DNA of 64,000 nt. Origin: Gilvimarinus polysaccharolyticus (lineage in GTDB: Bacteria; Pseudomonadota; Gammaproteobacteria; Pseudomonadales; Cellvibrionaceae). A program made the translations under genes and the position numbers. Location: NCBI RefSeq assembly GCF_001187555.1, contig NZ_LFIJ01000002.1, positions 160,716 to 224,715 of the forward strand. The letters run 5' to 3'. The notes under the pieces were generated by a model. It was not told the DNA's origin and did not search any database. It was given only the letters and a program-made list of their open reading frames with translations. Shown here in pieces: positions 10,712 through 29,857 of this stretch. Position 1 is the stretch's first letter. Each line of letters opens with the position of its first letter.

Positions 10712-12058
10712 ATGGCTAGAGCTAAAGTAGAAAAAGCCCCAATACTCAACTTTTCGGAAGATTTTGAAGCGATTATCCCTTTACTGGGCGATTGCGATGT
10801 TACGGATTCAGAAGGGCGCTACCTCCACTGGGGTCAATTTAAGTGGAGAGTGGATAAAAATAACGCTGAGAATTTATGGAAGGCAGTTAAGTTTAAGCGG
10901 ATATCGCAACATAAACCAATTGGCTTGAACGATGAAAATGGCAGGCCCTTCGTCTACTGCACCCCCCATTCAATGGAGGCAACCCTTTATCAATTGGTTA
11001 AAGTTACTGGCGGCAATGTAGGCGCCATCGCTGACTCTGCAGCTAGTGAGAGCTTGCAAAGTAGGTTCTTAGTTTCGTCTCTAATAATGGAGGAGGCGAT
11101 TACCAGTGCTCAACTGGAAGGGGCCTCAACCACCAGAGAAGTTGCAAAGAAGATGCTGGAAGACGAAAGGGATCCCGTCGATGAAGATGAAAGAATGATC
11201 CTCAATAATTATCTTCTCCTAAAGTATGCAGAACAAAACAGTAAAAACGAACTTACTTTAGATATGATTTTAGAGTTTCATAGAATTGCAACGAGAGGTA
11301 CAACTGAGAATAACGTTGTACCTGGAGAGTTCAGAATAGACAACGATATTTATATCGAAGATGGAGATGGCAATATCGCCCATCAACCTCCTGACTTCTC
11401 ACTGATCGAGCAAAGAATACGGGATTTATGTGAATTCGCAAATAAAGATCATACAGGCTTAGGCGGCTGCGATTTTGTTCATCCGTTAATTAAAGCTATA
11501 GTTTTGCACTTTATGATTGGCTATGAACATCCATTTCGAGACGGGAACGGTAGAACCGCCAGAGCTCTTTTTTATTGGTTTATGCTTAAAAGTGACTACA
11601 CTTTGTTTAAATACATTTCCATCAGCAAACTATTAAAAGAGAAACCAAATGATTATGGCTTATCTTATATGTATACAGAAAAGGACGACAACGACTTAAC
11701 CTACTTTATTTATTTTCAATTGGAGATTATTTCTAAAGCTTTTGAAGAGCTTAAAAAATACCTCAACTTGAAGGTCTCGGAATTTAAAAGCATATCAGAA
11801 ACTCTAGAGAAAACCTCCTGGGGCAACATTCTTCATTTTATTCAAAAAGATTTAATTAAAAAAGCAGTGAAAGAGCCCGGGAGGATATTTAATGTAAAGG
11901 AGGTTTCGAAGTCTTACTCTATATCAGAGAATACATCGAGAAACTACCTTGCAAAGCTCGTGGATATGAAACTATTCCTTTCCACTAAAGATGGCAGAAA
12001 AGTTATATATATTGCTCCTTCAGACCTTCTTCGAAAACTGCAAAGCGGTAAAGCCTAA
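10712..12058 (+). CDS. Fic family protein AMP-transferase with N-terminal inhibitory helix and C-terminal winged helix
   Basis: 448 aa. Fic proteins transfer AMP (or a related group) to Ser, Thr or Tyr of target proteins. The full catalytic motif HPFRDGNGRTAR starts at His273. The inhibitory motif (S/T)xxxE(G/N) appears as Ser132-A-Q-L-Glu136-Gly137 before the Fic core, which marks class II, auto-inhibited enzymes. Residues about 380-440 look like a winged helix (NVKEVSKSYSISENTSRNYLAKLVDM), as in chromosomal Fic proteins that may bind DNA or autoregulate. The ribosome site is AGGGTGAG. The gene is clearly richer in A and T than its neighbours, which suggests acquisition. It stands alone between MOSC and dnaB. 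No antitoxin partner is visible. The target is unknown. Confidence 0.92.
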   Translation: MARAKVEKAPILNFSEDFEAIIPLLGDCDVTDSEGRYLHWGQFKWRVDKNNAENLWKAVKFKRISQHKPIGLNDENGRPFVYCTPHSMEATLYQLVKVTGGNVGAIADSAASESLQSRFLVSSLIMEEAITSAQLEGASTTREVAKKMLEDERDPVDEDERMILNNYLLLKYAEQNSKNELTLDMILEFHRIATRGTTENNVVPGEFRIDNDIYIEDGDGNIAHQPPDFSLIEQRIRDLCEFANKDHTGLGGCDFVHPLIKAIVLHFMIGYEHPFRDGNGRTARALFYWFMLKSDYTLFKYISISKLLKEKPNDYGLSYMYTEKDDNDLTYFIYFQLEIISKAFEELKKYLNLKVSEFKSISETLEKTSWGNILHFIQKDLIKKAVKEPGRIFNVKEVSKSYSISENTSRNYLAKLVDMKLFLSTKDGRKVIYIAPSDLLRKLQSGKA

Positions 12059-15417: not shown

Positions 15418-15867
15418 TTACTCCCCCTCTGTTTCGGTAGTCTGATCTTCGGTTTCTGCAGAGTCGTTTGACTCATCAGAAGCTTGATCGTCAGACTCGT
15501 CACGACGCTCTGGACGAGGTGCACGTGGCTTACGCTCACGGCTCTCTTTATCAGCCTTAGCAATCGGTGACTCTTCAGTAACCGCTTCATCAGTGCGGAT
15601 AACCAAGTTACGCAGCACAGCATCGTTGTAGCGGAAGTTGGTGGTCAGCTCTTCTAGAGCTTCTTCGCTACACTCTACGTTCATCAGAACATAGTGCGCT
15701 TTGTGGATTTTGTTGATTGAGTAAGCCATTTGACGACGGCCCCAATCTTCCAAACGGTGAACCTGACCACCGCCGCTAGTAACCGTCGCGGTGTAACGCT
15801 CGATCATGCCCGGAACCTGTTCGCTCTGGTCCGGGTGAACCATAAAGATAATCTCGTAATGACGCAT
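15418..15867 (-). CDS. rpsF: 30S ribosomal protein S6
   Basis: 149 aa from the ATG at 15867, which is preceded by AAGGAG; a longer reading frame up to 15984 lacks the family start and overlaps the leader. The core [25 protein letters not shown] and the [24 protein letters not shown] segment are typical S6. Residues about 105-149 are a long acidic, disordered tail (Ser, Asp, Glu and Thr rich). E. coli S6 also has a variable tail that is glutamylated, and the ending TETEGE here is Glu-rich. First gene of the operon with rpsR, the membrane protein and rplI. Confidence 0.97.
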
Positions 15868-16079: not shown

Positions 16080-17843
16080 TTAATCGCCGTTAAGTTGATT
16101 TAAATACGCCCGCAACAAGGCAACCTTACCTGGAGACAAAGCGCGAGTCAGAGGCATATAAAGAGTCGTCGGGCGATAACTCTCATCAATGCGCTTTAAT
16201 AACTCGCCCGCCACGGCCTGAATAGTCGCCTCATCATTCAGGGGGATACGCTTAGACATGGCAGGAAAGAGTACATAAAAAAAGCGTAAACAGTGCTCAT
16301 AGACATCAGCCCAAGCAATATTGCCGGCATTAATAAGGGCGCTGTAATCGTGCTCTGGGTAGCGCCTAAACGCCATATGATAATCGCTGGCGCACACGGC
16401 TTTAAACTCCAGCAGCGAAAAGCCGCTACCCGCATTAAATTCTAGATCAATAGTCACCTCTGTAGCTCCAGCAGGCACTTGTACCGTAGCGGGGAACTCC
16501 AAAAACTGACCATCCTCTAAAGTGCCAGGCGATGAGGTGGAAAGTTGCAACACAACGGGTGTCAGCAACGGCCCGCCCAGCTCGTGTACTCGCACAGTCA
16601 CAGCTTTACGGGTATCGCTTGGATCGGTATACAAGTTTCGAGCATCGCTGCTGATGCGCAAGCGTGACTCCGTAATCTGCAAATCATTTTTGTCGCTAGT
16701 GATTTGTATCGGATGGGCTTTTAGTAGCGCAACCGCCTCGGTACTCAGCGCCACATCGTACAAACCGCCCCACTCATAGTAACCGCCTGGGTTTGACGGC
16801 ACGCTGGCGATTTGTCGCTCACCGGCAGAGATTATTAAATTGCCATAATCAAGGTTGGGGCCAATGGGGCCGGTGTTGGCCTGGCCGTTGCTACGAATAT
16901 TGTCGCCTTCAAGTGCCGACACCAAATCTAAACTCAATCGCGCCGCAGACTCATCCAGCCACGCCAACCCCTGGGCACCACCTAGCTTAACGTTTGGCAG
17001 TAATCGTCCTAGAGGATCACTTGCTAACTCATCGGCATACCAAGCACCGACACTGCCGATGACTCGTCCCAACGATGGGTTAGCGTTATTTTGATTTGCT
17101 TTTAAATCGGCGCGTACGCTGGCACTATCGTTACCGGGAAAACATTCAAACAGGCTGTAGCGAACCACCAACCCTTGGCTGCGCGGATCATTGATGATCG
17201 CCGCTAACACTGGGTCACTGTCGTCAAAAGAGACGATGTCTTGTTTACGAAATGCCAGCTGAAAGGTCCCACTAGCCCAAGCCGAGCCCGGCGTTAAATA
17301 AGGTGGCTGCACTCGACTGGTGGAATAACGCAACCCCAACAAACGCGAATGACTAACCGCGTGACCCTGCACCAGTAATGCCGGTGTATCGCCACCGCCT
17401 ATTTGAAAGCCACCGGCATAAATTTGGCTGGTGACAGAACTGGTGGGATCGATATCCACCATCACCGCCCCACCGTATGGGCCTTTACCGGTTCCCGGCT
17501 CTAATCCACCTAATAGATACACAGGTAAATGTTGCAGCCCGCCGGTTTGATTCATAGCCCCCGGCGCACCAGAGGACGAGACTTTAGCCTGCTGTAAAAC
17601 CACTTGGTGATCACCGTAGTAATTCCAACCACCGCGCACAAAATACGGCTGCCCTTTAGAGTTACTCACCTCTTCTCGCAGGTAGGCAATAACGTCGTCG
17701 TCCGACTGCGCAGAGCAAACCGAAGCGTCATTCAAATCCAGTAATGGCTTGCCATCGGTTGTGTACTGATCGTTATTGGCGGTATCGACATTAATGCTAA
17801 TGCCCCCGTAGAAGTTAATACGTGGTCCGTTTAAATAGCTCAT
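16080..17843 (-). CDS. Stand-alone VioB/RebD N-terminal-region-like protein, unknown function
   Basis: 587 aa, no signal peptide. The opening (YLNGPRINFYGGISINVDTANND) and the ending (YEHCLRFFYVLFPAMSKRI... then TLYMPLTRALSPGKVALLRAYL), with a middle SSDARNLYTDP, match my memory of the N-terminal ~580 residues of VioB, the iminophenyl-pyruvate dimer synthase of violacein synthesis (PRIHFRG...TAN.D; SDASNLY; MP.TRELS..KA). The ferritin-like catalytic half of VioB is absent and the protein stops where it would begin. The start codon overlaps the stop of the cytochrome-like gene by 4 bp (ATGA), so the two are translationally coupled. No VioA, VioC or other indole pathway gene is near. The family resemblance is from memory; the function is unknown. 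Confidence 0.6.
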   Translation of the reverse strand: MSYLNGPRINFYGGISINVDTANNDQYTTDGKPLLDLNDASVCSAQSDDDVIAYLREEVSNSKGQPYFVRGGWNYYGDHQVVLQQAKVSSSGAPGAMNQTGGLQHLPVYLLGGLEPGTGKGPYGGAVMVDIDPTSSVTSQIYAGGFQIGGGDTPALLVQGHAVSHSRLLGLRYSTSRVQPPYLTPGSAWASGTFQLAFRKQDIVSFDDSDPVLAAIINDPRSQGLVVRYSLFECFPGNDSASVRADLKANQNNANPSLGRVIGSVGAWYADELASDPLGRLLPNVKLGGAQGLAWLDESAARLSLDLVSALEGDNIRSNGQANTGPIGPNLDYGNLIISAGERQIASVPSNPGGYYEWGGLYDVALSTEAVALLKAHPIQITSDKNDLQITESRLRISSDARNLYTDPSDTRKAVTVRVHELGGPLLTPVVLQLSTSSPGTLEDGQFLEFPATVQVPAGATEVTIDLEFNAGSGFSLLEFKAVCASDYHMAFRRYPEHDYSALINAGNIAWADVYEHCLRFFYVLFPAMSKRIPLNDEATIQAVAGELLKRIDESYRPTTLYMPLTRALSPGKVALLRAYLNQLNGD

Positions 17844-19084
17844 TGCGACTCTCCTTGTGCTTTGGCCGGCTGTTGCGCAAACAGAAAAATAAAACTGTAG
17901 TTGGATTTAGTGGCATTACCCGGCACCCTTGCGGTGCTATGACAATCCATACAGCTGCTAATCGGCTGGATATAACTTTCTAAGACAGTATTGGCTACGG
18001 TACTAGGAAAAGGCGACCCCTGTGGATTGCCAGGATCACTAGGGTCGGTGGGCCACTGGGGCGAAATTAGCCGGTAATATTGAAACGGCGTTCCTTCGAC
18101 CCTCGCCTGCCAATCCTGATTAACCGCTATCACCTCATCGTCCAAATCGGTGACCCGAGTCACCTGATTAGGCGCGGTAAAAGGTGCGCCGGTAATTAAC
18201 GGTGAAACGTTGGGGGTACAGTGCGGCCCCGAACAATTCTCGTTGAAATAAGATGGCTGCACGCCGTGGCTGGCATCGGTATTATCTACTTGCTCAAAGG
18301 TCGCCCACGTCCACTGCGGAAACCCTGGCGCCCGATAAACAACATGCATGCCCACCATGCCCACAACCGCCTCACGAGTGCGACCGGTGTTATTACCCTC
18401 GCTGTCGTATTCCGTGACCTGCGCCGTCATAGTGTGATATCGGCTGTGATCATCGCTATCAACCAGGATTCGCCACGCAGCCTTTACCTCCAGCGCCCCC
18501 TCCGGGAAGCTGACCTTGTCAGCCGCCGCTATAATGTCAGCATTGTAGTAACCGTTGGTAACAACATACTCATAAGAGACTCGGTTTACCGAAATCGAAT
18601 AATAGGTTGGATTGCCGTGCTGGTCGGTTAGCCAGCCACCCACCGCCTGCCGCACCGACTCTTCCACCGGCAAATCTGCCGGCGCCTTGGCGCGATGTTC
18701 TAATGTGAACAGCATAACGGCCCCCGCGTCCCACGGACCGGGATCAAGGGCATTCGGTAAAAATAATTGATCGGTCGTTTTGTAGGTTTGCCAGACGGTT
18801 TTTTCGCTAGAGCCAAACGCCGCCGTACAATCCGGCACACCGCGCTGTGCACCTGCAGGCCAATTAAGCGCCACAAATTGCAGCCATGAGAAATCAGAAA
18901 AAGCGGTCAAAGAACCATCCGGCGACGGTGCCTGAACAGGCAAAGCACAGCTAAGTGGGACTGGCATTGGAGGGGCTGGGGCTGGGGTTGTATCTGCGAG
19001 CGCTACTGCAGGCAATATAAGTAGCGTTAATAACCGCCGTGCCAATTTAAACTGAGAACACGTAACCTTGTTGTACATACTCAA
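17840..19084 (-). CDS. Exported monoheme cytochrome c-like protein, partner of the VioB-N-like protein
   Basis: 414 aa. Signal peptide residues about 1-30 (LARRLLTLLILPAVALA|DTTPAP), followed by a proline-rich linker. A single haem c motif CMDCH lies near residue 389, close to the C-terminus, which is unusual: most class I cytochromes have it near the N-terminus of the domain. The body (AFSDFSWLQFVALNWPAGAQRG, WQTYKTTDQLFLP, MVGMHVVYRAPGFPQWTWATFEQVDN) is one I recall only from uncharacterised proteins. It contains several Trp-rich segments and could hold a second cofactor. It should reside in the periplasm, while its partner shows no export signal. First gene of a two-gene operon. Confidence 0.7.
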   Translation of the reverse strand: MSMYNKVTCSQFKLARRLLTLLILPAVALADTTPAPAPPMPVPLSCALPVQAPSPDGSLTAFSDFSWLQFVALNWPAGAQRGVPDCTAAFGSSEKTVWQTYKTTDQLFLPNALDPGPWDAGAVMLFTLEHRAKAPADLPVEESVRQAVGGWLTDQHGNPTYYSISVNRVSYEYVVTNGYYNADIIAAADKVSFPEGALEVKAAWRILVDSDDHSRYHTMTAQVTEYDSEGNNTGRTREAVVGMVGMHVVYRAPGFPQWTWATFEQVDNTDASHGVQPSYFNENCSGPHCTPNVSPLITGAPFTAPNQVTRVTDLDDEVIAVNQDWQARVEGTPFQYYRLISPQWPTDPSDPGNPQGSPFPSTVANTVLESYIQPISSCMDCHSTARVPGNATKSNYSFIFLFAQQPAKAQGESQ

Positions 19085-19172
19085 ACTCCTTTTGATGAAA
19101 AATACTCAACAAGTTTGGCTCAATCCGTCTCCCTGTCAAGCCATGGACCACTAAATCATAATAACCAAACAC

Positions 19173-19202
19173 AAAAAAGGCAGCCTTTAAGCTGCCTTTT
19201 TT
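19173..19202 (-). terminator. Rho-independent terminator of glyA
   Basis: GGCAGC (19179-19184) pairs with GCTGCC (19191-19196), flanked by A6 and T6 that extend the stem to 12 bp. It lies about 20 bp past the glyA stop and works on both strands. Confidence 0.88.
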
Positions 19203-19221
19203 ATGGTTACTCGTTTAAAAC

Positions 19222-20493
19222 TCAGCTGCCATAGACTGGAAACTTAGCACAAACGTTTAATACTTTTTGCTTAACTTCGGCAATTACCGCTTCAGCGTTG
19301 CCGTTTTCTAGTCCGTCCAATACGTCACACATCCAGTGTGCCAAATCGGTGCTTTCGGTCTCACCAAAGCCGCGAGTCGTAATGGCCGGCGTACCAACAC
19401 GCAAACCACTGGTGACAAACGGCGAGCGTGGATCGTTAGGCACGGCGTTTTTGTTAACCGTGATGTTAGCTTCGCCCAGTGCGGCATCGGCGTCTTTACC
19501 CGAGTACTCTTTACCGATCAGGCTGACCAACATTAGGTGGTTCTCGGTGCCGCCAGAGACTACATCTAGGCCGCGTTCGATAAACACTTTGGCCATCGCC
19601 TTGGCGTTTTTAACCACTTGCTTTTGGTAGGCTTTGTACTCATCGCTCATGGCCTCTTTAAAGCTGATCGCTTTAGCGGCAATCACATGCATTAATGGGC
19701 CACCTTGGCCACCTGGGAATACGGCCGAGTTAAGCTTCTTTTGAATGTCTTCATCGCTACCTGCCAAAATCAAGCCGCCGCGTGGACCGCGCAAGGTTTT
19801 GTGGGTGGTCGAGGTGACGACATGGGCGTGCGGCATTGGGTTGGGGTAAACACCTGCAGCAACCAAACCGGCTACGTGAGCCATATCAACCAGTAAGTAA
19901 GCGCCTACTTTATCGGCGATTTCGCGAAACTTAGCCCAATCGATAACTTGCGAGTAAGCCGAGAAACCAGCAACGATCATCTTAGGTTTGTGCTCTAACG
20001 CCAACTGCTCGACTTCGGCAAAATCGATCAGACCGGTTTCGGTGTTGATGCCGTACTGTACAGAGTTGTATATTTTGCCCGAAAAACTCACTTTAGCGCC
20101 GTGGGTTAAGTGGCCACCGTGGGCCAAGCTCATGCCCAACACGGTATCGCCAGGGGCACAAAGTGCGGCGTAAACGGCTGTATTAGCTTGCGAGCCGGAG
20201 TGCGGCTGAACGTTGGCGTAAGCGGCGCCAAACAACTCACAGGCACGGTCTATGGCCAGCTGCTCGCTGCGGTCGACGTATTCACAGCCACCGTAATAAC
20301 GCTTGCCCGGATACCCTTCGGCGTACTTGTTGGTCAGCTTAGTGCCCTGCGCGGCCATAACCATGGGGCTGGTGTAGTTTTCTGAGGCGATCAGCTCGAT
20401 GTGATCTTCCTGGCGGCGACTTTCGTTCTCGATAGACGCCCAGATCTCCGGGTCAAAGCTTGCAATGGTCTGGTCTTTATCAAACATGGACAC
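19222..20493 (-). CDS. glyA: Serine hydroxymethyltransferase
   Basis: 423 aa. PLP enzyme converting serine and tetrahydrofolate to glycine and methylene-THF, the main one-carbon source. Typical segments: [68 protein letters not shown], and [16 protein letters not shown] whose Lys carries PLP. The ATG at 20493 has GGAAG upstream. No glycine riboswitch could be seen in the 249-bp upstream region. A single-gene transcript ending at the hairpin 19173-19202. Confidence 0.98.
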
Positions 20494-23410: not shown

Positions 23411-24769
23411 TTAGTGATCGTGCTCCTCGGTTGCTACCCCCAACCAAACACCACCGGCCGGAGCAAAGTCGAGCGACCAGGCGTCGGCGCTCACAGCATC
23501 CTCTAAGTCTACCGGTATCACTTGCTGGTCGGCGCTGTTAAGCACGTAAGCCATATGACCTTCGGGTTGTACGATAAGCGTTAGTGCATCGGCAGCGGGG
23601 CTGGTCAACACCTGAATTCGGGCCTGCTCGGACCAGTCGTGCGCATCCAGCAGCACTAACGCGCCATCGGACTGCAAAATAGCAAACGCCTCGCCACCCA
23701 ATACAAACTCGTAGCTAACCGCGCTGACACCTTCCGGCATACTCACCCCCAGTGGCTGCAACTGAGCTTGGGACGGGTCGGCCAGATAAAACTTACCCGA
23801 GGCAATCGCTACTGCTTGCGCGACATGGTGGTGCGCACGCAAAGTGCCAACTCGCATGCCATCGGTAAAGTCATCGGCATTGGTTATTTTGGTTGCGCTA
23901 AAATCGCTCGGCTCATCAATAAGTAACACGCCGTCTTCACAGCCAAAAAAGATCGCATCTTCACTTTGCGCGCTGCCGTGCAAACCAGGACAAGGCTCAG
24001 CAAAGGTAAGCTCGTGCTCGTACAATCCTCCATGCAGGTGATACAAACCTACCGCGGCAGGCAATGTACTGCTGGTGGCTGCATCGCGCTCGGTGGCCAA
24101 TACATGCTCGCCACGCAATTGCGCCGCACCGTGCATATGGGTGGTAAATTGCAGAGCATTTTCTAAACCATTCTCAGCAATAGTTGCATCGCTAAAGGTC
24201 ACAACGCCGGCAACATCGGCGGTATCACCATTGCCGTCGTAAAATACTGCAGCACCGGCATCGCCAAGGGTAAAGTGCGTAGGTTTAACGCCATCCAAAG
24301 CAAAATCCATTAGCTGTGGCGCTTCGGCGTACGGGTGGTCGTGATCGCCGTGATCTTCAACCCAAACACCGCCATCGACAAAGCTTACCCAGTTGTCATC
24401 GCGGTGGATAAATGCCGCGTAGCGATAGCCTTGCATCGGGTAGACATAACTAACGGCGGCTGGCAGTGTCAGCTCGGCCACTTCATCGCCATCGCTCGCC
24501 TCAAAAACATGAACCGTATCGGTGCCGGCTTCTATCAACAGCAAACGCGCAGCGCTGAGTTCGTCCTCGTGATCATGTTCATCTTCTTCGTGGTCGTGCT
24601 CATCTTCTTCATGATCGTGATCATGTTCATCTTCTTCATGATCGTGATCTTCGTGACCCGGCTCGGCCACATCTTGTGCATAAATATTGGTTTCGTTATC
24701 ACCACAGGCAGTTAGAGCTAACACTAAAAAAGCAGCAAATAACGGGTTAAATTTTGAAATTTTTTGCAT
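23411..24769 (-). CDS. His-rich metal-binding lipoprotein (zinc-uptake accessory)
   Basis: 452 aa. Lipoprotein signal with lipobox LTAC at Cys22 (LVLALTAC|GDN). Residues about 40-72 are a low-complexity His/Asp/Glu tract built from repeats of HEEDEHDHD type, a strong metal-binding segment. The remaining about 380 residues are beta-rich repeats that look like a beta-propeller (LLLIEAGTDTVHVFEASDGD, YAAFIHRDDNWVSFVDGGVW and others), with scattered His. It ends with HDH. The gene follows the ZnuD-like receptor by 27 bp in the same operon, behind a Zur-like palindrome. Inferred role: capture or hand-over of zinc at the outer membrane or in the periplasm. I do not recognise a named family with confidence. 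Confidence 0.7.
   Translation of the reverse strand: MQKISKFNPLFAAFLVLALTACGDNETNIYAQDVAEPGHEDHDHEEDEHDHDHEEDEHDHEEDEHDHEDELSAARLLLIEAGTDTVHVFEASDGDEVAELTLPAAVSYVYPMQGYRYAAFIHRDDNWVSFVDGGVWVEDHGDHDHPYAEAPQLMDFALDGVKPTHFTLGDAGAAVFYDGNGDTADVAGVVTFSDATIAENGLENALQFTTHMHGAAQLRGEHVLATERDAATSSTLPAAVGLYHLHGGLYEHELTFAEPCPGLHGSAQSEDAIFFGCEDGVLLIDEPSDFSATKITNADDFTDGMRVGTLRAHHHVAQAVAIASGKFYLADPSQAQLQPLGVSMPEGVSAVSYEFVLGGEAFAILQSDGALVLLDAHDWSEQARIQVLTSPAADALTLIVQPEGHMAYVLNSADQQVIPVDLEDAVSADAWSLDFAPAGGVWLGVATEEHDH
24561..24654. repeat. Tandem coding repeat encoding His/Asp/Glu tract
   Basis: The DNA has imperfect direct repeats of a unit close to CATCTTCTTCATGATCGTGAT, about 24-30 bp long, repeated three to four times. 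They encode the metal-binding tract of the lipoprotein and could vary in number by slippage. Confidence 0.7.
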
Positions 24770-24796
24770 TGAGATGTCCTTAACTTAATCGTTGAA

Positions 24797-27127
24797 TTAG
24801 AAAGAAGCGCGAATACCTGCGGATACCGAACGTGCGGCACGCGGTGCGATGTCTTTAATAAAGGAGCTATGAACACGGGCGGTTTCATTCAGCAGGTTGT
24901 CGCCTCGCAGATAGACGTTCACTCCGCCCAATACTGGCAGGGTGTAACGCACTTCCGCATCAACCCAGGTGTAAGCGTCTGTAGTGGTTTCCAACTCGGC
25001 AGTGTTATCTGCCTCAAAGTAGTGAGTAGCGCTGGCATTTAAGTACCACGAACCAACTTCATACTCGGCCACAAAACCTGCGCGCATAGGCGGGATACGA
25101 GGCAAATTGCCGCCACTGCGCAAAGTGGCTCGAGTGTAGTCGGTGGTAATGCGTAACAGCAGTGGGTCATTCACTTGCCAATGCAACTCACCTTCAAACC
25201 CGTAGAGCTCGGCGTCGGCAGCGGTAAACTGATACGCCGGCAGCAACTCCTCGTCCTCATGCTCGTCGTGCTCTTCTTCATGGTCATGATCATGTTCTTC
25301 TTCATGGTCATGATCGTGGCCACTATCTGCCTCAAGCCCGGTGGCACGAGCGTAGTAAAAATCGTCTACCTGATTGTAGAAGGCGCCTACGACAAAGCCG
25401 ATATTACCAATGAATTTACGCAGCGAAATATCAATGTTATTCGAAGTTTCAAGCTCCACTGGTTCTTCGGCAAAATTCACGACCCAATCGCCATGATCAT
25501 TGGCGACGATGTCAAACATAGAGCCCACCTCATAGCTGCCAGCCCCGATATGAGGGCCAAACGAAAACGCCTCGGTAGCCGATGGCGCGCGCTGAGCGTG
25601 GGTGAGGTTAATGCCAAGGTTATACCCTTCGGTAAAGTCCCACACAGTTCCCAGCGAGACGCTGTAAGGCATAAACTCTTGTTCGATGCGGTACAAACCA
25701 CGCTCACCCTCAGAGTCTAAACGCACGTCTTGGGCATCAACCTCAATCCACTCAATCCGACCGCCCAACTGCACTAGCCAGTCGCCAAAGTGCTTTTCTT
25801 CCATCACCGCCAGTGCGTAAGAGTCTGTTACCGATGGAGGCGTAAAGGCCTCTTCGCCCTGCGCCTGGGAGTCTTCTTGTTTAAAGTGCAAGCTTACAGC
25901 TCCGCGCCACTCAGAAAACGGCTGATGAAACACATCTAAACGTGCTTCGTGCAGCTCTTTCTCAAAGGTCGTGCCAATCGCATCACCTTCCAGCTCTTGA
26001 TGCTGATAATCGGTATAGCCGTAGCGAAAACGTGCTTCAGAAAAAACACTGTGGTCAAAGCTATACTCGCTCACCAGCTGGACCCGGTCTTGCTCGAGCT
26101 CAGCCTGTACCGCCACACCGTCATGGCTATGACCGGGAATTCCGTAGGTGCGCTCGATACGACCGACACTAATACCGGTAAAACCCATGTCGCTAATGTA
26201 GCTACCACCGAGAGTCGCGCCTTGACTGTCGTAAGCAGAGTTTTCTAATACGCCATAAGCGGCATCACCGTCAGGCTCTAGCTCGGCATAGCCGGGAACA
26301 TCTATATCCTCGGCCTCGCGCCAAAAACCGTCTACGTGCACCGCAAACTGATCGCTCAGTGCGACGTTAGCGCTCCCTTCTATCACCGGCTCGTTGTTAG
26401 CGCCGTTGTATTCTAATTGCCACTGACCGAAGGTTTCGGCATCTTGTGGAACACGATCATCAACCACGTTAACTACACCACCAATGGCACCATTACCGTA
26501 AAACAAGGTGGCCGGGCCGCGCATAATTTCCACCTGACGAGCTGTTGTCGCTTCACCAGTTACCGCGTGATCTGGGCCCGAGCGCGATACATCGCCAACG
26601 TCTAAGCCGTTTTGCGCCACCAATACGCGCGGCCCCGATAAGCCGCGAATGATTGGGCTGCCAGCCACTGGACCATAGTAGCTCGAGTGCACCCCTACCT
26701 GCTTATTAAGGGTATCGCCTAAAGTAGCCGATTGCGCATCGCGCAATGCGTCACCACTGAGCACCGAGACTGGCGAAGCGGACTCTAACTGTGAGATGTG
26801 CCAGGGCATACCGGTCACATCAACAATTTCCATAACGGTTTCATCGAGAATGATCTGCAATGGATCATCCCCACCGTGCACATGAACATTCTTGTGCATA
26901 AACCTGGGCGCTTTTACGTGCAACTCCACGTCTTGGCTGGACAGATCCTCCAGCACAAACTCACCTTGAGTATTAGTCGTGGAGCTTGTGCGCGTGCCCA
27001 CCACTTCAACCGCGGCGTCACTTACCGGCGCCCCATCCGCATTCAGTACCACACCTTGAATAGTGGCGGCACTCGCCCAGCACGGCAGCAATACACAACT
27101 CGCAAACAACAAAGACCGTTTCAACAC
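24797..27127 (-). CDS. znuD: TonB-dependent outer-membrane zinc receptor, ZnuD-like, with N-terminal carboxypeptidase-like domain
   Basis: About 776 aa from the GTG at 27127 (TTG at 27124 is an alternative). Signal peptide LKRSLLFASCVLLPCWASA|ATIQ follows directly. The frame is open up to 27310, but that extension crosses the Zur-like site and has no ribosome site; GGGGG lies before the GTG. Domains: a CarboxypepD-reg-like domain (QGVVLNADGAPVSDAAVEVVGT), a plug (SPVSVLSGDALRDAQSATLGDTLNKQVGVHSSY, PIIRGLSGPRVLVAQNGL) and a 22-strand type beta-barrel ending in Phe. An extracellular His/Asp/Glu loop near residues 605-635 (HDHDHEEEHDHDHEEEHDEHEDEE) matches ZnuD-type zinc receptors. First gene of the zinc operon. 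Confidence 0.88.
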   Translation of the reverse strand: MLKRSLLFASCVLLPCWASAATIQGVVLNADGAPVSDAAVEVVGTRTSSTTNTQGEFVLEDLSSQDVELHVKAPRFMHKNVHVHGGDDPLQIILDETVMEIVDVTGMPWHISQLESASPVSVLSGDALRDAQSATLGDTLNKQVGVHSSYYGPVAGSPIIRGLSGPRVLVAQNGLDVGDVSRSGPDHAVTGEATTARQVEIMRGPATLFYGNGAIGGVVNVVDDRVPQDAETFGQWQLEYNGANNEPVIEGSANVALSDQFAVHVDGFWREAEDIDVPGYAELEPDGDAAYGVLENSAYDSQGATLGGSYISDMGFTGISVGRIERTYGIPGHSHDGVAVQAELEQDRVQLVSEYSFDHSVFSEARFRYGYTDYQHQELEGDAIGTTFEKELHEARLDVFHQPFSEWRGAVSLHFKQEDSQAQGEEAFTPPSVTDSYALAVMEEKHFGDWLVQLGGRIEWIEVDAQDVRLDSEGERGLYRIEQEFMPYSVSLGTVWDFTEGYNLGINLTHAQRAPSATEAFSFGPHIGAGSYEVGSMFDIVANDHGDWVVNFAEEPVELETSNNIDISLRKFIGNIGFVVGAFYNQVDDFYYARATGLEADSGHDHDHEEEHDHDHEEEHDEHEDEELLPAYQFTAADAELYGFEGELHWQVNDPLLLRITTDYTRATLRSGGNLPRIPPMRAGFVAEYEVGSWYLNASATHYFEADNTAELETTTDAYTWVDAEVRYTLPVLGGVNVYLRGDNLLNETARVHSSFIKDIAPRAARSVSAGIRASF
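25249..25325. repeat. Low-complexity repeat encoding the ZnuD His-rich loop
   Basis: Imperfect repeat of TCATGGTCATGATCATGTTC-like units, encoding the acidic/His loop of the receptor. It resembles the repeat in the neighbouring lipoprotein gene at the protein level. Confidence 0.6.
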
Positions 27128-27183
27128 AACCCCCAAACCACAGATAAACTTAGATAAATGAACGAAGACAATTCTAGATCGCA

Positions 27184-27199
27184 TTATGTTATAACATAA
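27184..27199. promoter_or_regulatory. Perfect 16-bp palindrome, candidate Zur box of the zinc operon
   Basis: TTATGTTATAACATAA is a perfect palindrome. It is close to the gammaproteobacterial Zur consensus core (GTTATAATATAAC). On the minus strand it overlaps the -10 of a plausible promoter (TTGATG at 27209-27214, 17-bp spacer, TAACAT at 27186-27191), which fits repression by zinc-loaded Zur. It sits 57 bp before the GTG of the znuD-like gene. Confidence 0.65.
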
Positions 27200-27612
27200 C
27201 AATCCTGACATCAAGCGAATAGGTATCTCCGAGTGAAGCGGTACACCATCATTAAAATCGCTACCAAGCCTGCCAAGCAAAGAGCGCCTACCACCGCACA
27301 ACCAAGGCATTAAGTACGAAGCAACCTAGGTAACACCCGTCGGTTGCATTCCACGCACTGGCGTAATACTGTACAAATCGCAAAAGAGTGGCTCTTTTTT
27401 CAAACCTAAATAGAACACCGCCCCAGCATGACAAATGACAATTTATTAAAAAGCCAAGCTCTAGCGGTGCGATATAATCAGCAGAGGGCGGGCACATAAA
27501 ACCAAGCCTCTAGATTTTGGAGAATAAGGCTCAGCGTTAAGGCAGCCGATAGAGAAACGCTTTTATTACTCGCAACCTCTAAACAATACATTAACCTCAG
27601 CAAATAAATTCT
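27200..27612. other. Divergent control region between znuD-like and trmH-like genes
   Basis: 413 bp without a credible gene. The left edge holds the -35 of the zinc promoter. Near 27473 a TATAAT hexamer points rightwards and may be the -10 of the methyltransferase gene. Nothing else is recognised. Confidence 0.45.
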
Positions 27613-28161
27613 ATGACAAATAGTTATGCCTGCATTGGCTTATTTAATCCAAAATCCCCCGAAAATGTTGGTTCAGTTATGCGAGCCGCGGGATGCTACG
27701 GCGTTAACTCCGTGTTCTACACGGGCACACGTTATGACCATGCCAAACCTTTTTATACCGATACGCAAAAAATCTACGAAACATTACCACTCATTGGCGT
27801 CAATGAACTTAAAGATATTATTCCCTTAGGTTGCGTACCCGTTGCGGTTGATTTAATCGCCGGAGCAAAATCACTGACCAGCTATAAACACCCAGCCAGA
27901 GCTTTCTACATATTTGGCCCAGAAGACGGAACCTTAAAAAAAGAGATCACCGACTTCTGTGAAGATATTGTTTATATTCCAACGGAAGGCTGTATGAACT
28001 TAGCGGCAACCGTTAATGTAGTACTTTATGATCGCCTCGCTAAAGGGGATAATTTTTCTCATCATCAAGAATCATTAAAGAAAAAGAAACACAAAGATCA
28101 AACCGAAAACCATTGTGCGACACTTAATAATGATGACTCGAGCGACGAGAAAGTCCGCTAG
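27613..28161 (+). CDS. SpoU/TrmH-family RNA 2'-O-methyltransferase
   Basis: 182 aa. It uses SAM to methylate ribose 2'-OH of tRNA or rRNA. The trefoil-knot SPOUT fold motifs are present: motif 1 NPKSPENVGSVMRAAGCYGV near residue 11, motif 2 FYIFGPEDGTLKKEI, and motif 3 VYIPTEGCMNLAATVNVVLYDRL near residue 120. The normally strict NxxR of motif 1 appears as PENVGSVMRAA. The protein lacks the extra N-terminal L30e-like domain of large TrmH members. The C-terminal 35 residues are highly charged and basic. The target RNA site is unknown. It is unrelated in function to the divergently transcribed zinc genes. Confidence 0.9.
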   Translation: MTNSYACIGLFNPKSPENVGSVMRAAGCYGVNSVFYTGTRYDHAKPFYTDTQKIYETLPLIGVNELKDIIPLGCVPVAVDLIAGAKSLTSYKHPARAFYIFGPEDGTLKKEITDFCEDIVYIPTEGCMNLAATVNVVLYDRLAKGDNFSHHQESLKKKKHKDQTENHCATLNNDDSSDEKVR

Positions 28162-28294
28162 CAGAGATTAAGTCAACGCTTTAGATTAACGCCCCTTGAA
28201 ATTTAATTAGCTACCCGATGCCGGTAAGCTTAGCTTTTAATAATCACTCAAACGCTAAGATAACCATTACTATTATCAGTTTATTTGGAGCTTT

Positions 28295-28783
28295 ATGAAA
28301 ATGACTATTTCTCGAGAAGCCATTATATTTTTAACCTGTACGTTTTTGACAAACGGTCTAAACGCACAAGAAGACGCAAGTATAAAAAAAACGCAAGATT
28401 CCAAACAGTTTTATGATTTTGCATTAAACAACCAACCCAATATTGCCTCTTTCGAATTGGTTTCTAAATGGCTGCAAGAGGAAACTGTCATCCTGATTGA
28501 TTTACGCTCTAGCAGCGATTTTGAGAAATCACATATTAGTGGCGCCATCAGTATTCCTGCTACAGAGCTTACCGAAAAATCGTTAAGGCAAGTAATCCCG
28601 TCTAAAGAGAGTCGAGTTGTCACCTACTGTGACAATAATTTCTCTTTAAGCCGAAAAGTCGCCTTGACCACCATAGCCGATCCAACCATCAAACAACTCG
28701 GATATAAAAATACTTTTATTCTTCAGTCCAGCTTATCGAATAAAATATCCCCTTTATCTTTAGAAATTTCACCGCCCATATAA
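28295..28783 (+). CDS. Exported rhodanese-like domain protein
   Basis: 162 aa. Signal peptide residues 1-24 (IIFLTCTFLTNGLNA|QED). The rhodanese-like domain covers about residues 48-150 (VILIDLRSSSDFEKSHISGAISIPATEL, the cdc25/rhodanese entry motif, then the active loop). The putative active Cys112 is followed by Arg120 in CDNNFSLSR, giving a loop of seven residues between Cys and Arg, longer than the usual four or five. In bacterial sulfurtransferases the loop length separates sulfur from phosphate/arsenate substrates. The protein would act in the periplasm. The substrate is unknown. It stands 111 bp before the COG0523 GTPase gene. Confidence 0.82.
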   Translation: MKMTISREAIIFLTCTFLTNGLNAQEDASIKKTQDSKQFYDFALNNQPNIASFELVSKWLQEETVILIDLRSSSDFEKSHISGAISIPATELTEKSLRQVIPSKESRVVTYCDNNFSLSRKVALTTIADPTIKQLGYKNTFILQSSLSNKISPLSLEISPPI

Positions 28784-28882
28784 TGTTTGCGATTAAAGCA
28801 CCGCCCCCAGCAAATGGCGCAACCCATTCAACACTATGTACGCAGCGCCATAACCTTTAACCTACTTGCAGCCTAACTACTT

Positions 28883-29857
28883 ATGTCTTCGCTAATACCC
28901 ACCAATATCATCACTGGCTTTCTCGGTGTAGGTAAAACCACCGTCATTCGGCACCTATTACAGCAAAAGCCACAAGCCGAGCGCTGGGCCATCTTGGTCA
29001 ACGAATTTGGCGAAATTGGTATTGATGGCGCTTTACTGCGCGATGACGGCACCGCCGTTAAAGAGATTCCCGGTGGCTGTATGTGTTGTGTTGCAGGCTT
29101 GCCCATGCAAGTAGGGTTAACTCAATTATTACGCAGTCAAGATTTTGACCGGCTAATTATTGAACCCACCGGCCTAGGCCATCCAGTCGAGATACTGCAA
29201 ACACTCAACGACCACTTCCAACAATCACTCAAGCTAAAAGCCTGCTTAACGCTTATCGACCCCCGCCATTTTGTGAGCAACAGGCACCTAGAACACGAAA
29301 CCTTTCGCCAACAGTTAGAGGTTGCCGATGTACTGGTCATTAGCAAAGTGGACTTGGCCAGTGATGAGCAGTTAACCGTCATGCAGCAACAGCTTGAACA
29401 GTGGCAACTGCAACAGCGCCCACTGGTGCAAATTAAGCAAGGCCAGCTGCAGCCACACTGGTTAGATGGCACGCATCAACAACACAGCCCGTTACCCGAG
29501 CCCAGCCATCACCACAGCAGTAATTACCCGGCAGCGACGCTGCCTACACCAACCCTCGAGCAGCCGATCCTCAGTAAACAACATCAGGGGCAAGGGTACT
29601 TCAGTGCCGGCTGGGTCATTCATCCCGCCAACGTATTTGCCTTAGGGCCGCTATTCAATTGGGTAAACGGCTTAACTTGCGACCGCCTAAAAGCGGTACT
29701 GATTACCGATCAAGGCATCATCGGCCTCAACCTCGCCGATGGTGTGGTTAAAATGCTGGAGCTGGACGAGTGCGAAGACAGCCGGTTAGAAATTATTCAC
29801 CACCAACCGCTGGACTGGGATGCTTTAGGTGATGAGTTAAAAAAGTGCTTAGAATAA
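28883..29857 (+). CDS. COG0523 (CobW/YeiR-type) metallochaperone GTPase
   Basis: 324 aa. G3E-family P-loop GTPase. Walker A GFLGVGKTT at residues 12-20, the metal-binding CxCC as Cys66-M-Cys68-Cys69 (GGCMCC), a guanine-specificity SKVD motif near residue 155, and IEPTGLGHP switch region. Between the two domains a His-rich stretch (HQQHSPLPEPSHHHSS) near residues 200-215 fits zinc binding. The C-terminal CobW_C domain is present (GYFSAGWVIHP). Such proteins deliver zinc or cobalt to metalloenzymes. It lies near the zinc uptake operon but not within it, and I saw no Zur-like site directly upstream. Target protein unknown. Confidence 0.9.
   Translation: MSSLIPTNIITGFLGVGKTTVIRHLLQQKPQAERWAILVNEFGEIGIDGALLRDDGTAVKEIPGGCMCCVAGLPMQVGLTQLLRSQDFDRLIIEPTGLGHPVEILQTLNDHFQQSLKLKACLTLIDPRHFVSNRHLEHETFRQQLEVADVLVISKVDLASDEQLTVMQQQLEQWQLQQRPLVQIKQGQLQPHWLDGTHQQHSPLPEPSHHHSSNYPAATLPTPTLEQPILSKQHQGQGYFSAGWVIHPANVFALGPLFNWVNGLTCDRLKAVLITDQGIIGLNLADGVVKMLELDECEDSRLEIIHHQPLDWDALGDELKKCLE

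Follow-up and report, generated by a model that had tools for sequence, protein, structure and literature searches.

A stand-alone VioB-like N-terminal half and an exported monohaem protein form a gene pair linked to ebo clusters

Background

Gene clusters of the ebo type are found in many bacteria and also in some algal plastids. They have been implicated in the export of the scytonemin monomer in Nostoc, where each ebo mutant studied retains the monomer in the cytoplasm (PMC6282210). The EDB locus, by which Pseudomonas fluorescens NZI7 repels nematodes, encloses a full ebo cluster, and expression of the locus in E. coli gives rise to indole compounds (PMC9655573). A literature search that combined ebo with VioB returned no paper with ebo in its main text, and the terms VioB, violacein, cytochrome, heme, EDB and ferritin have no occurrence in PMC5133447.

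Here we describe a gene pair from Gilvimarinus polysaccharolyticus, one member resembling half of a pigment-making VioB-type enzyme and the other encoding a haem protein, which has remained together in distantly related bacteria and in relatives recurs within ebo clusters. The window is the whole stretch of 64,000 nucleotides that was analysed.

Results and discussion

Arrangement and conservation of the gene pair

In the list of open reading frames both genes lie on the minus strand, with the haem gene first and the VioB-like gene second. The features of the locus are:

17840 to 19084, minus strand: gene 1, exported monohaem protein of 414 aa, TTG start, read from 19084 to 17840
18482 to 18484, minus strand: Lys201, placed where P460 proteins have their haem-lysine cross-link, kept in 24/24 members and aligned to the P460 lysine by hhalign
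18344 to 18346, minus strand: His247, invariant (24/24 members), by the computed alignment at most one residue from where P460 has its distal carboxylate
17939 to 17953, minus strand: CMDCH, residues 378-382, c-type haem attachment motif, with C378, C381 and H382 in 24/24 aligned members
17851 to 17856, minus strand: AAGGAG, resembling a ribosome-binding site, 7 nt before the start of gene 2
17840 to 17843, minus strand: ATGA, 4-bp overlap of the gene 1 stop and the gene 2 start
16080 to 17843, minus strand: gene 2, stand-alone VioB N-terminal half of 587 aa, ATG start, read from 17843 to 16080
19170 to 19205, minus strand: terminator-like hairpin with a 16-pair stem, in the interval between glyA and the pair

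The 4-bp overlap claimed in an earlier note on this DNA is indeed present, the ATGA being common to stop and start. It suggests translational coupling of the two genes, and the orthologues of the pair in G029 overlap by 4 bp as well. The hairpin is only suggestive as a terminator, since the scan gave 5 terminator-like sites where shuffled sequence would give 4.1; a promoter scan gave 3 against 3.1 expected.

The pair is not a chance arrangement, since three relatives align at 40-56% identity and retain both gene order and adjacency. A haem gene adjoins upstream in all 29 full-length type-1 VioB-N genes examined (the window's own, those of G029, L001 and L002, and 25 in the genus of G536). The adjacency of the two genes across genomes, on which the earlier note had made its reading depend, holds throughout the type-1 cases (29/29).

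Composition gives no support to a foreign island, the GC contents of the genes being 51.5% and 53.5% and the mean 49.4% (sd 3.6, windows of 1500 bases). A phage origin was rejected: the VioB-N protein, which alone was searched against phage records, had no match there, and the viral contigs, searched with both profiles, held no relative by either.

The VioB-like protein

Against the VioB model TIGR04492, residues 1-586 of the 587-aa protein align with profile positions 1-584 of 1003 (E 1.9e-17). The match ends where the ferritin-like half would start, and its score of 62.4 bits is a small fraction of the 1250 set as the equivalog cut-off. The same model matches 14 of the 15 aligned VioB-N members, the window's included, at E <= 0.1. 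Pfam gave no match for the protein at E <= 1, and the ferritin-like family PF12902 has 0 matches in the genome of the window. The extent of the profile match and the absence of PF12902 uphold the earlier reading of a VioB N-terminal half without its catalytic half. The comparison was made with the model of VioB, an enzyme to which RebD and StaD are related.

A strongly hydrophobic N-terminal segment is found in none of the 15 aligned members, and a signal peptide is not evident in the sequence of the window's protein. A search of the PDB by sequence yielded nothing convincing, with no VioB/RebD-type chain among the matches. The predicted structure, based on an alignment of three sequences, is a weak model (mean pLDDT 52.8), with which Foldseek returned mostly partial beta-sandwich matches; cystinosin entries headed the list, which also had Ig/Calx-beta-like domains of about 110 residues, and we base no conclusion on it.

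The haem protein

The 414-aa protein has a single CXXCH, which is C-terminal, and by simple hydropathy its N-terminus bears a hydrophobic stretch typical of export. This agrees with the earlier description of an exported protein with one CMDCH near its C-terminus (residues 378-382 of 414).

The protein is probably a long and divergent relative of the cytochromes P460 and c'-beta. The Pfam family Cytochrome_P460 matches residues 173-288 at E 0.0097, the 16.7 bits being below the gathering cut-off of 27, and 2 of the 24 haem-family members match it at E <= 0.1. With the family alignment cut to its likely core, which was done after the uncut result was seen, hhalign against 27 P460s gave a score reached by 0/100 shuffles, a control that covers the cut version only. 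In the uncut comparison the best local match consisted of 6 columns at the CXXCH (19.2%), the lysine segment came second (7.8%), and a realigned run gave 2 columns.

The spacing of the Lys201 motif, P-x-G-x4-K, is that of Pro71/Gly73/Lys78 in McP460. Lys201 matches the cross-link lysine by position, the haem cross-link itself being only predicted; the c'-beta proteins do without this lysine (PMC11928373). His247 may lie near the P460 distal carboxylate, a placement of low confidence that concerns nearness only. Matches to the PDB by sequence are at chance level, a cytochrome P460 at E 1.9 among them, and the predicted structure (alignment of three sequences, pLDDT 31.1) is an unusable model. 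The protein bears a P460 signature that is specific but weak, and its body, described earlier as poorly known, is therefore not wholly unknown.

Linkage to ebo clusters

In the genomes that could be checked, ebo genes accompany the pair, and in several lineages it sits within ebo clusters. In the genus of G536, which belongs to the same order as the window's organism, VioB-N-like genes occur in 32 and EboE in 31 of the 249 genomes. EboE is found in 31/32 genomes with VioB-N-like genes versus 0/217 of the others, in a set whose genomes are not independent and in which G536 was picked for carrying the pair, so that a Fisher value computed on it does not have the meaning of a probability. The sole VioB-N genome without EboE is G998, an assembly of about 1150 contigs. 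Of the 24 genomes having both EboE and the type-1 pair, 23 carry EboE 6.4-7.5 kb upstream of the pair and in the same orientation. The full-length type-1 pair is adjacent in 25/25 cases in this genus, and a second haem/VioB-N pair is present in 32/32, with match midpoints 2.8-2.9 kb apart. The gene order in G536 is eboD-C-A-B-E-F-haem2-VioBN2-secreted-haem1-VioBN1-ScyD/E-like.

Similar neighbourhoods are seen elsewhere. The pair is adjoined by ebo D, C, A, B, E and F in a Marinobacterium MAG (L002), and has ebo C, E and D nearby in Nitrospirillum (L001). EboB and EboD homologues adjoin in the cyanobacterium Gloeothece (L042), where EboA, C, E and F were not found by tblastn. ScyD/ScyE-like genes adjoin in L002 (below the family cut-off) and in G536.

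In the genome of the window, eboA-F (at G000:C1) and the pair (at G000:C2) are on different contigs; its EboE scores above its cut-off, and its two ScyE matches are both under theirs. G029 also has EboE, with the pair unlinked to ebo. Among 58 relatives EboE was found in 17, including both of the VioB-N carriers (2/2). The other 15 of these 17 have no VioB-N match, and therefore ebo does not need the pair. EboE is present in 6/7 other species of the window organism's genus.

An isolated, unrelated redox pair is rejected on account of the relatives that carry the pair among ebo genes. The earlier note had treated the pair as isolated; it now appears as an accessory of a known type of cluster, ebo/EDB, with eboA-F elsewhere in the window's genome. 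Its statement that indole-alkaloid genes are lacking nearby is correct within the window, where no such biosynthetic families were recognised among the Pfam matches of 50 proteins, but the ebo link was missed thereby. Its guess at a natural product-like system gains support, because most of the relatives seen carry the pair amid ebo genes.

Proposed role and alternatives

On balance, and with modest confidence, we favour the reading that the pair is a module accessory to a metabolite pathway of the ebo/EDB type, with steps of VioB-N handling, Ebo transfer and haem oxidation. It is probably an add-on to make or finish a small aromatic compound, for which we infer the following chemistry. The VioB N-terminal half would act in the cytosol, without a ferritin-like catalytic half, and would bind or position an aromatic intermediate, probably derived from tryptophan or indolepyruvate. 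The Ebo proteins would then hand this intermediate over to the periplasm, where the exported P460-like monohaem protein may carry out the final oxidation or coupling, or take up electrons from that step. Since they lie apart in the window's genome, the pair and the ebo cluster would there act in trans.

The partners of VioB-N allow a different reading. With L040 left out as too fragmentary, VioB-N-like genes of clear context adjoin or are fused with a haem-family or ferritin-like (PF12902) partner: type 1 has its haem partner in 29/29 cases, a second type has a haem gene close by in 32/32 (one genus) and also in L042 and L037, a third type has a ferritin-like gene in L001 and L042, and L039 holds a fusion. 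Together with the overlap of the two window genes, this would suit a VioB-N scaffold with exchangeable redox partners, in which the P460-like cytochrome replaces the ferritin-like domain and both proteins make up one oxidase complex. We consider this unlikely. Attachment of c-type haem takes place in the periplasm, whereas VioB-N is without an evident signal peptide; moreover, the haem family is found without VioB-N too, both partner types are present in L001, and the ferritin-like frame of L038 is partial, on the opposite strand and one frame away. Less probable still is the wider conclusion that VioB-type enzymes are modular, with a conserved N-terminal scaffold that can employ either a ferritin-like iron domain or a lysine-cross-linked cytochrome of the P460 type. 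In that case the window's pair would be a bisindole-type oxidative coupling enzyme in haem form, and P460-type haem would have a use beyond nitrogen metabolism.

The ebo model has points against it, among them the separation of the pair from ebo in the window's genome and in G029 and the many EboE-bearing relatives without VioB-N. The location of the proteins also bears on it: with one exported and the other lacking an evident signal peptide, the two may never meet. A further observation against it is that haem-family members are also found, in loci that lack VioB-N, in the vicinity of GMC, LodA-like, tyrosinase and other genes, and therefore the role of the haem protein may be generic. It could serve unrelated oxidases in general as an exported carrier or acceptor of electrons, the VioB-N pairing being one of many and without specific shared chemistry. 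In line with this, a haem-family member shares a gene group with a GMC oxidoreductase in L035 and L043, is at most two genes from a tyrosinase in L044, has ferritin-like and LodA-like genes near it in L046, and is adjoined by SagB/TOMM genes in L045. This explanation seems doubtful to us, however, as the type-1 haem proteins stay with type-1 VioB-N in 25/25 cases in one genus, where the other haem-family members score far lower. That the pair is a relic of a lost cluster, now functionless in the window's organism, we regard as very improbable. VioB-N has a match in 0/7 other species of its genus examined and the pair is apart from ebo, but both frames are intact with the invariant residues of the family kept, the gene overlap and the ribosome-binding-site-like sequence are present, the GC content is ordinary for the window, and the same pair is kept in G029, likewise distant from ebo.

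In the ebo reading, a two-gene module with near-perfect ebo co-occurrence in one genus, containing half of an indole-coupling enzyme, offers a hint to what ebo clusters may process. The VioB N-terminal half is here found in a natural setting in which its role can be studied without that of the ferritin-like half. The signature of P460-type haem, lysine included, may also extend into natural-product-like loci.

Comparison with known systems

The window's protein follows the VioB iminophenyl-pyruvate dimer synthase (TIGR04492) along the whole N-terminal half, whereas the ferritin-like half is missing from both the protein and its genome. With the cytochromes P460 and c'-beta (PF16694) the haem protein shares the single C-terminal CXXCH, the lysine in P-x-G-x4-K and a weak profile similarity. 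It differs from them in its length, 414 aa versus roughly 160-240 for the P460 frames kept (110-300 being allowed), in a P460-like core that stops near residue 288 with the CXXCH beginning at 378, in the invariant His247 of its family, and in that the haem-family genes sit with biosynthetic or oxidase genes in the loci read. Finally, although the window's pair is on another contig than ebo, in relatives it lies within or near ebo/EDB clusters, and the two co-occur across genomes.

Gene pair and surroundings

The two genes lie next to each other between glyA and rpsF:

15418-15867: rpsF (ribosomal protein S6), flanking the pair on one side
16080-17843, minus strand: VioB-like gene, 587 aa, second of the pair
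17840-19084, minus strand: haem gene, first of the pair, encoding a 414-aa exported protein whose one CXXCH lies at residues 378-382
Between the pair and glyA: hairpin of 16 pairs
19222-20493: glyA, flanking the pair on the other side

The genes share the sequence ATGA, in line with the 4-bp overlap proposed in the earlier note, and AAGGAG precedes the second start. The exported partner does carry its single CXXCH near the C-terminus, and the stated lack of indole-alkaloid genes nearby also holds: no families of indole-alkaloid biosynthesis were recognised among the Pfam matches of the 50 window proteins searched. Terminator-like sites were not commoner in the region than in shuffled sequence (5 found, 4.1 expected).

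Elsewhere in the window, what looks like an uptake region for a metal, perhaps zinc, spans 23411-29857: close together lie genes for an exported protein rich in His and Glu that has no Pfam match (23411-24769), for a TonB-dependent receptor (24797-27310) and for a CobW-family GTPase (28883-29857). A Fic/DOC-family protein is encoded at 10712-12058 (PF02661, E 2.7e-18). A sugar-use region (33471-54328) holds two each of sodium:solute symporters, LacI-type regulators and GlcNAc 2-epimerase-like proteins, together with a GFO/IDH/MocA oxidoreductase, a GH130-like phosphorylase and a mandelate racemase-like protein.

A free-standing half of VioB

Residues 1-586 of the 587-aa protein (VioB-N) match positions 1-584 of the 1003 in the NCBIfam VioB profile TIGR04492 (E 1.9e-17), a span that identifies it as a homologue of the N-terminal half of VioB with both ends complete. 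With 62.4 bits at a cut-off of 1250 it is, as judged from its sequence, no VioB by the curated definition. The protein has no Pfam match, and PF12902, the ferritin-like half of VioB, was not found in the window's own genome; the half-length VioB recognised from the sequence alone is thus borne out. The position of the missing half is visible in a 1016-aa protein of another genome (locus L039, G171), where the VioB-N part is followed by PF12902 (213.9 bits).

Probable divergent relationship to cytochrome P460

The haem protein is probably a long, divergent P460/c'-beta relative. Its body, previously called poorly known, is not wholly so: it has a weak Pfam Cytochrome_P460 match, below the cut-off of 27 (16.7 bits, E 0.0097). 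Such a match at E <= 0.1 was found in 2 of the 24 family members aligned (24 of 41 rows, excluding re-fetched copies and close repeats). The comparison set comprised 27 P460 proteins from 30 fetched loci, three of which lacked a suitable frame. With the uncut family alignment, hhalign placed six columns around CXXCH first (19.2%) and a lysine segment second (7.8%), and the realigned run covered 2 columns only. When only residues 140-290 and 366-400 of the alignment were kept, a cut chosen after that outcome, the lysine segment ranked first (17.9%); its score of 27.3 was reached by 0 of 100 column-shuffled P460 profiles (mean 13.7, maximum 22.7). The segment pairs FPEGALEVK with WPDGAILVK, in identical register across three comparisons.

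Pro71, Gly73 and the cross-linking Lys78 are named as conserved in Methylococcus P460 (PMC6427953), which gives the motif P-x-G-x4-K; P194, G196 and K201 of the haem protein have the same spacing. All 24 members have K201, H247, W260, E264, N268, Y337, N365, E369 and CXXCH; 21 have P194 and 14 have G196. The predicted structure reached a pLDDT of only 31.1.

Other members of the haem family are found near a GMC oxidoreductase (L035, L043) and near SagB/TOMM genes (L045). The haem protein therefore falls within a larger family of exported proteins encoded next to oxidative enzymes; in this family the branch of the window-type pair (type 1) keeps to VioB-N.

Several loci of the family have features of their own. 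In another species of the genus (L035, 4697-8635), the haem-family gene, a small protein and the GMC oxidoreductase, in that order, look like a three-part membrane dehydrogenase. On a Bradyrhizobium plasmid (L046, 7650-14444) the gene lies beside a protein with BNR-type repeats and PF12902, adjoined by a LodA-like gene; on a Paracoccus denitrificans plasmid (L044, 4209-9335) it comes after genes for a tyrosinase and for a protein of 606 aa that has no Pfam match. A second CXXCH protein (454 aa, no Pfam match) adjoins it in L036 (5663-8499).

Linkage with ebo genes

In several relatives the pair is linked with genes of the metabolite-export cluster ebo. VioB-N was found in 2 of 58 related genomes (the window's own and G029), in 4 of a class sample of 369 (full-length only in the own genome), and in a phylum sample of 398 in the own genome and G536, a member of the same order. 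Scanning species-genome contigs with one protein as query, which detects close relatives only, added Nitrospirillum amazonense (L001) and a Marinobacterium MAG (L002). The survey called for earlier found the two genes adjacent, the haem gene directly upstream of VioB-N, in the own genome, G029, L001 and L002, and in all 25 type-1 cases in the genus of G536.

In the Marinobacterium MAG, eboD, C, A, B, E, F are followed by the haem gene, VioB-N and a gene resembling ScyD/ScyE; scores exceed the respective cut-offs for EboE, the EboA domain and the EboD-type synthase and stay below them for EboC and ScyD/E. G536 has eboD-C-A-B-E-F, a second haem/VioB-N pair, a secreted protein, the type-1 pair and a ScyD/E-like gene. 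In N. amazonense eboC, E and D are followed, on the opposite strand, by a third-type VioB-N, a separate PF12902 gene, the haem gene and type-1 VioB-N. In the cyanobacterium Gloeothece verrucosa (L042), a plasmid bears homologues of EboB and EboD, second-type haem and VioB-N genes, and a third-type VioB-N adjoining a ferritin-like gene; a tblastn search of this stretch gave no match for EboA, C, E or F. A protein of about 320 aa that looks secreted and has no Pfam match, common to the order-mate's ebo cluster (L016, 11766-12728) and L042 (2492-3460; 54% identity), forms a further unnamed cluster component.

The genus of G536 was searched three times, with 249 genomes each and identical handles wherever listed. 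VioB-N-like genes occur in 32 genomes, of which 25 have type 1 in full length; EboE occurs in 31, every one of them among these 32. The Fisher value of the co-occurrence overstates the case because G536 was picked for carrying the pair and genomes within a genus are not independent of one another. The carrier lacking an EboE match, G998, is in about 1150 contigs. EboE lies 6.4-7.5 kb upstream of the type-1 pair in 23 of 24 cases; in G962 the distance is about 200 kb, on the same contig. The genes of the second pair are close together in 32 of 32.

The window's own genome has an ebo run (A-B-D-E-F-C; EboE 414.4 bits, cut-off 250) on another contig than the pair, and in G029 EboE is about 230 kb from it. 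It speaks against a necessary link that 15 of the 17 EboE-bearing genomes among the 58 relatives lack a VioB-N match; these 15 include 6 of the 7 further species examined in the window's genus.

Proposed route and known systems

By analogy with known ebo systems, VioB-N may act in the cytosol on an aromatic intermediate, which Ebo would pass out of that compartment; the P460-like protein in the periplasm would then oxidise it or accept its electrons. What the analysis shows is the linkage of the genes; substrate, product and haem chemistry in this scheme are all inferred. That both proteins instead form one haem-dependent enzyme appears unlikely to us, because their predicted compartments differ. 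Peak N-terminal hydropathy (mean over 13 residues) is at most 1.20 in 15 VioB-N members (15 of 29 rows, excluding re-fetched copies and close repeats) versus 1.58-3.58 in the 24 haem-family members.

The suggestion of an uncharacterised redox or natural product-like system gains from the ebo linkage in relatives. Taken singly, ebo, P460 and the VioB half are of known kinds; in the open-licence literature we found no publication joining VioB with ebo. The proposed order, VioB-N to Ebo to the P460-like protein, follows Nostoc scytonemin and the EDB locus. The Nostoc ebo mutants studied retain the scytonemin monomer in their cytoplasm; the late oxidative step that dimerises this monomer is assigned to the periplasm (PMC6282210). 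A full ebo cluster is also contained in the P. fluorescens NZI7 EDB locus, which, according to a review (PMC9655573), turns tryptophan into nematode-repelling indole compounds.
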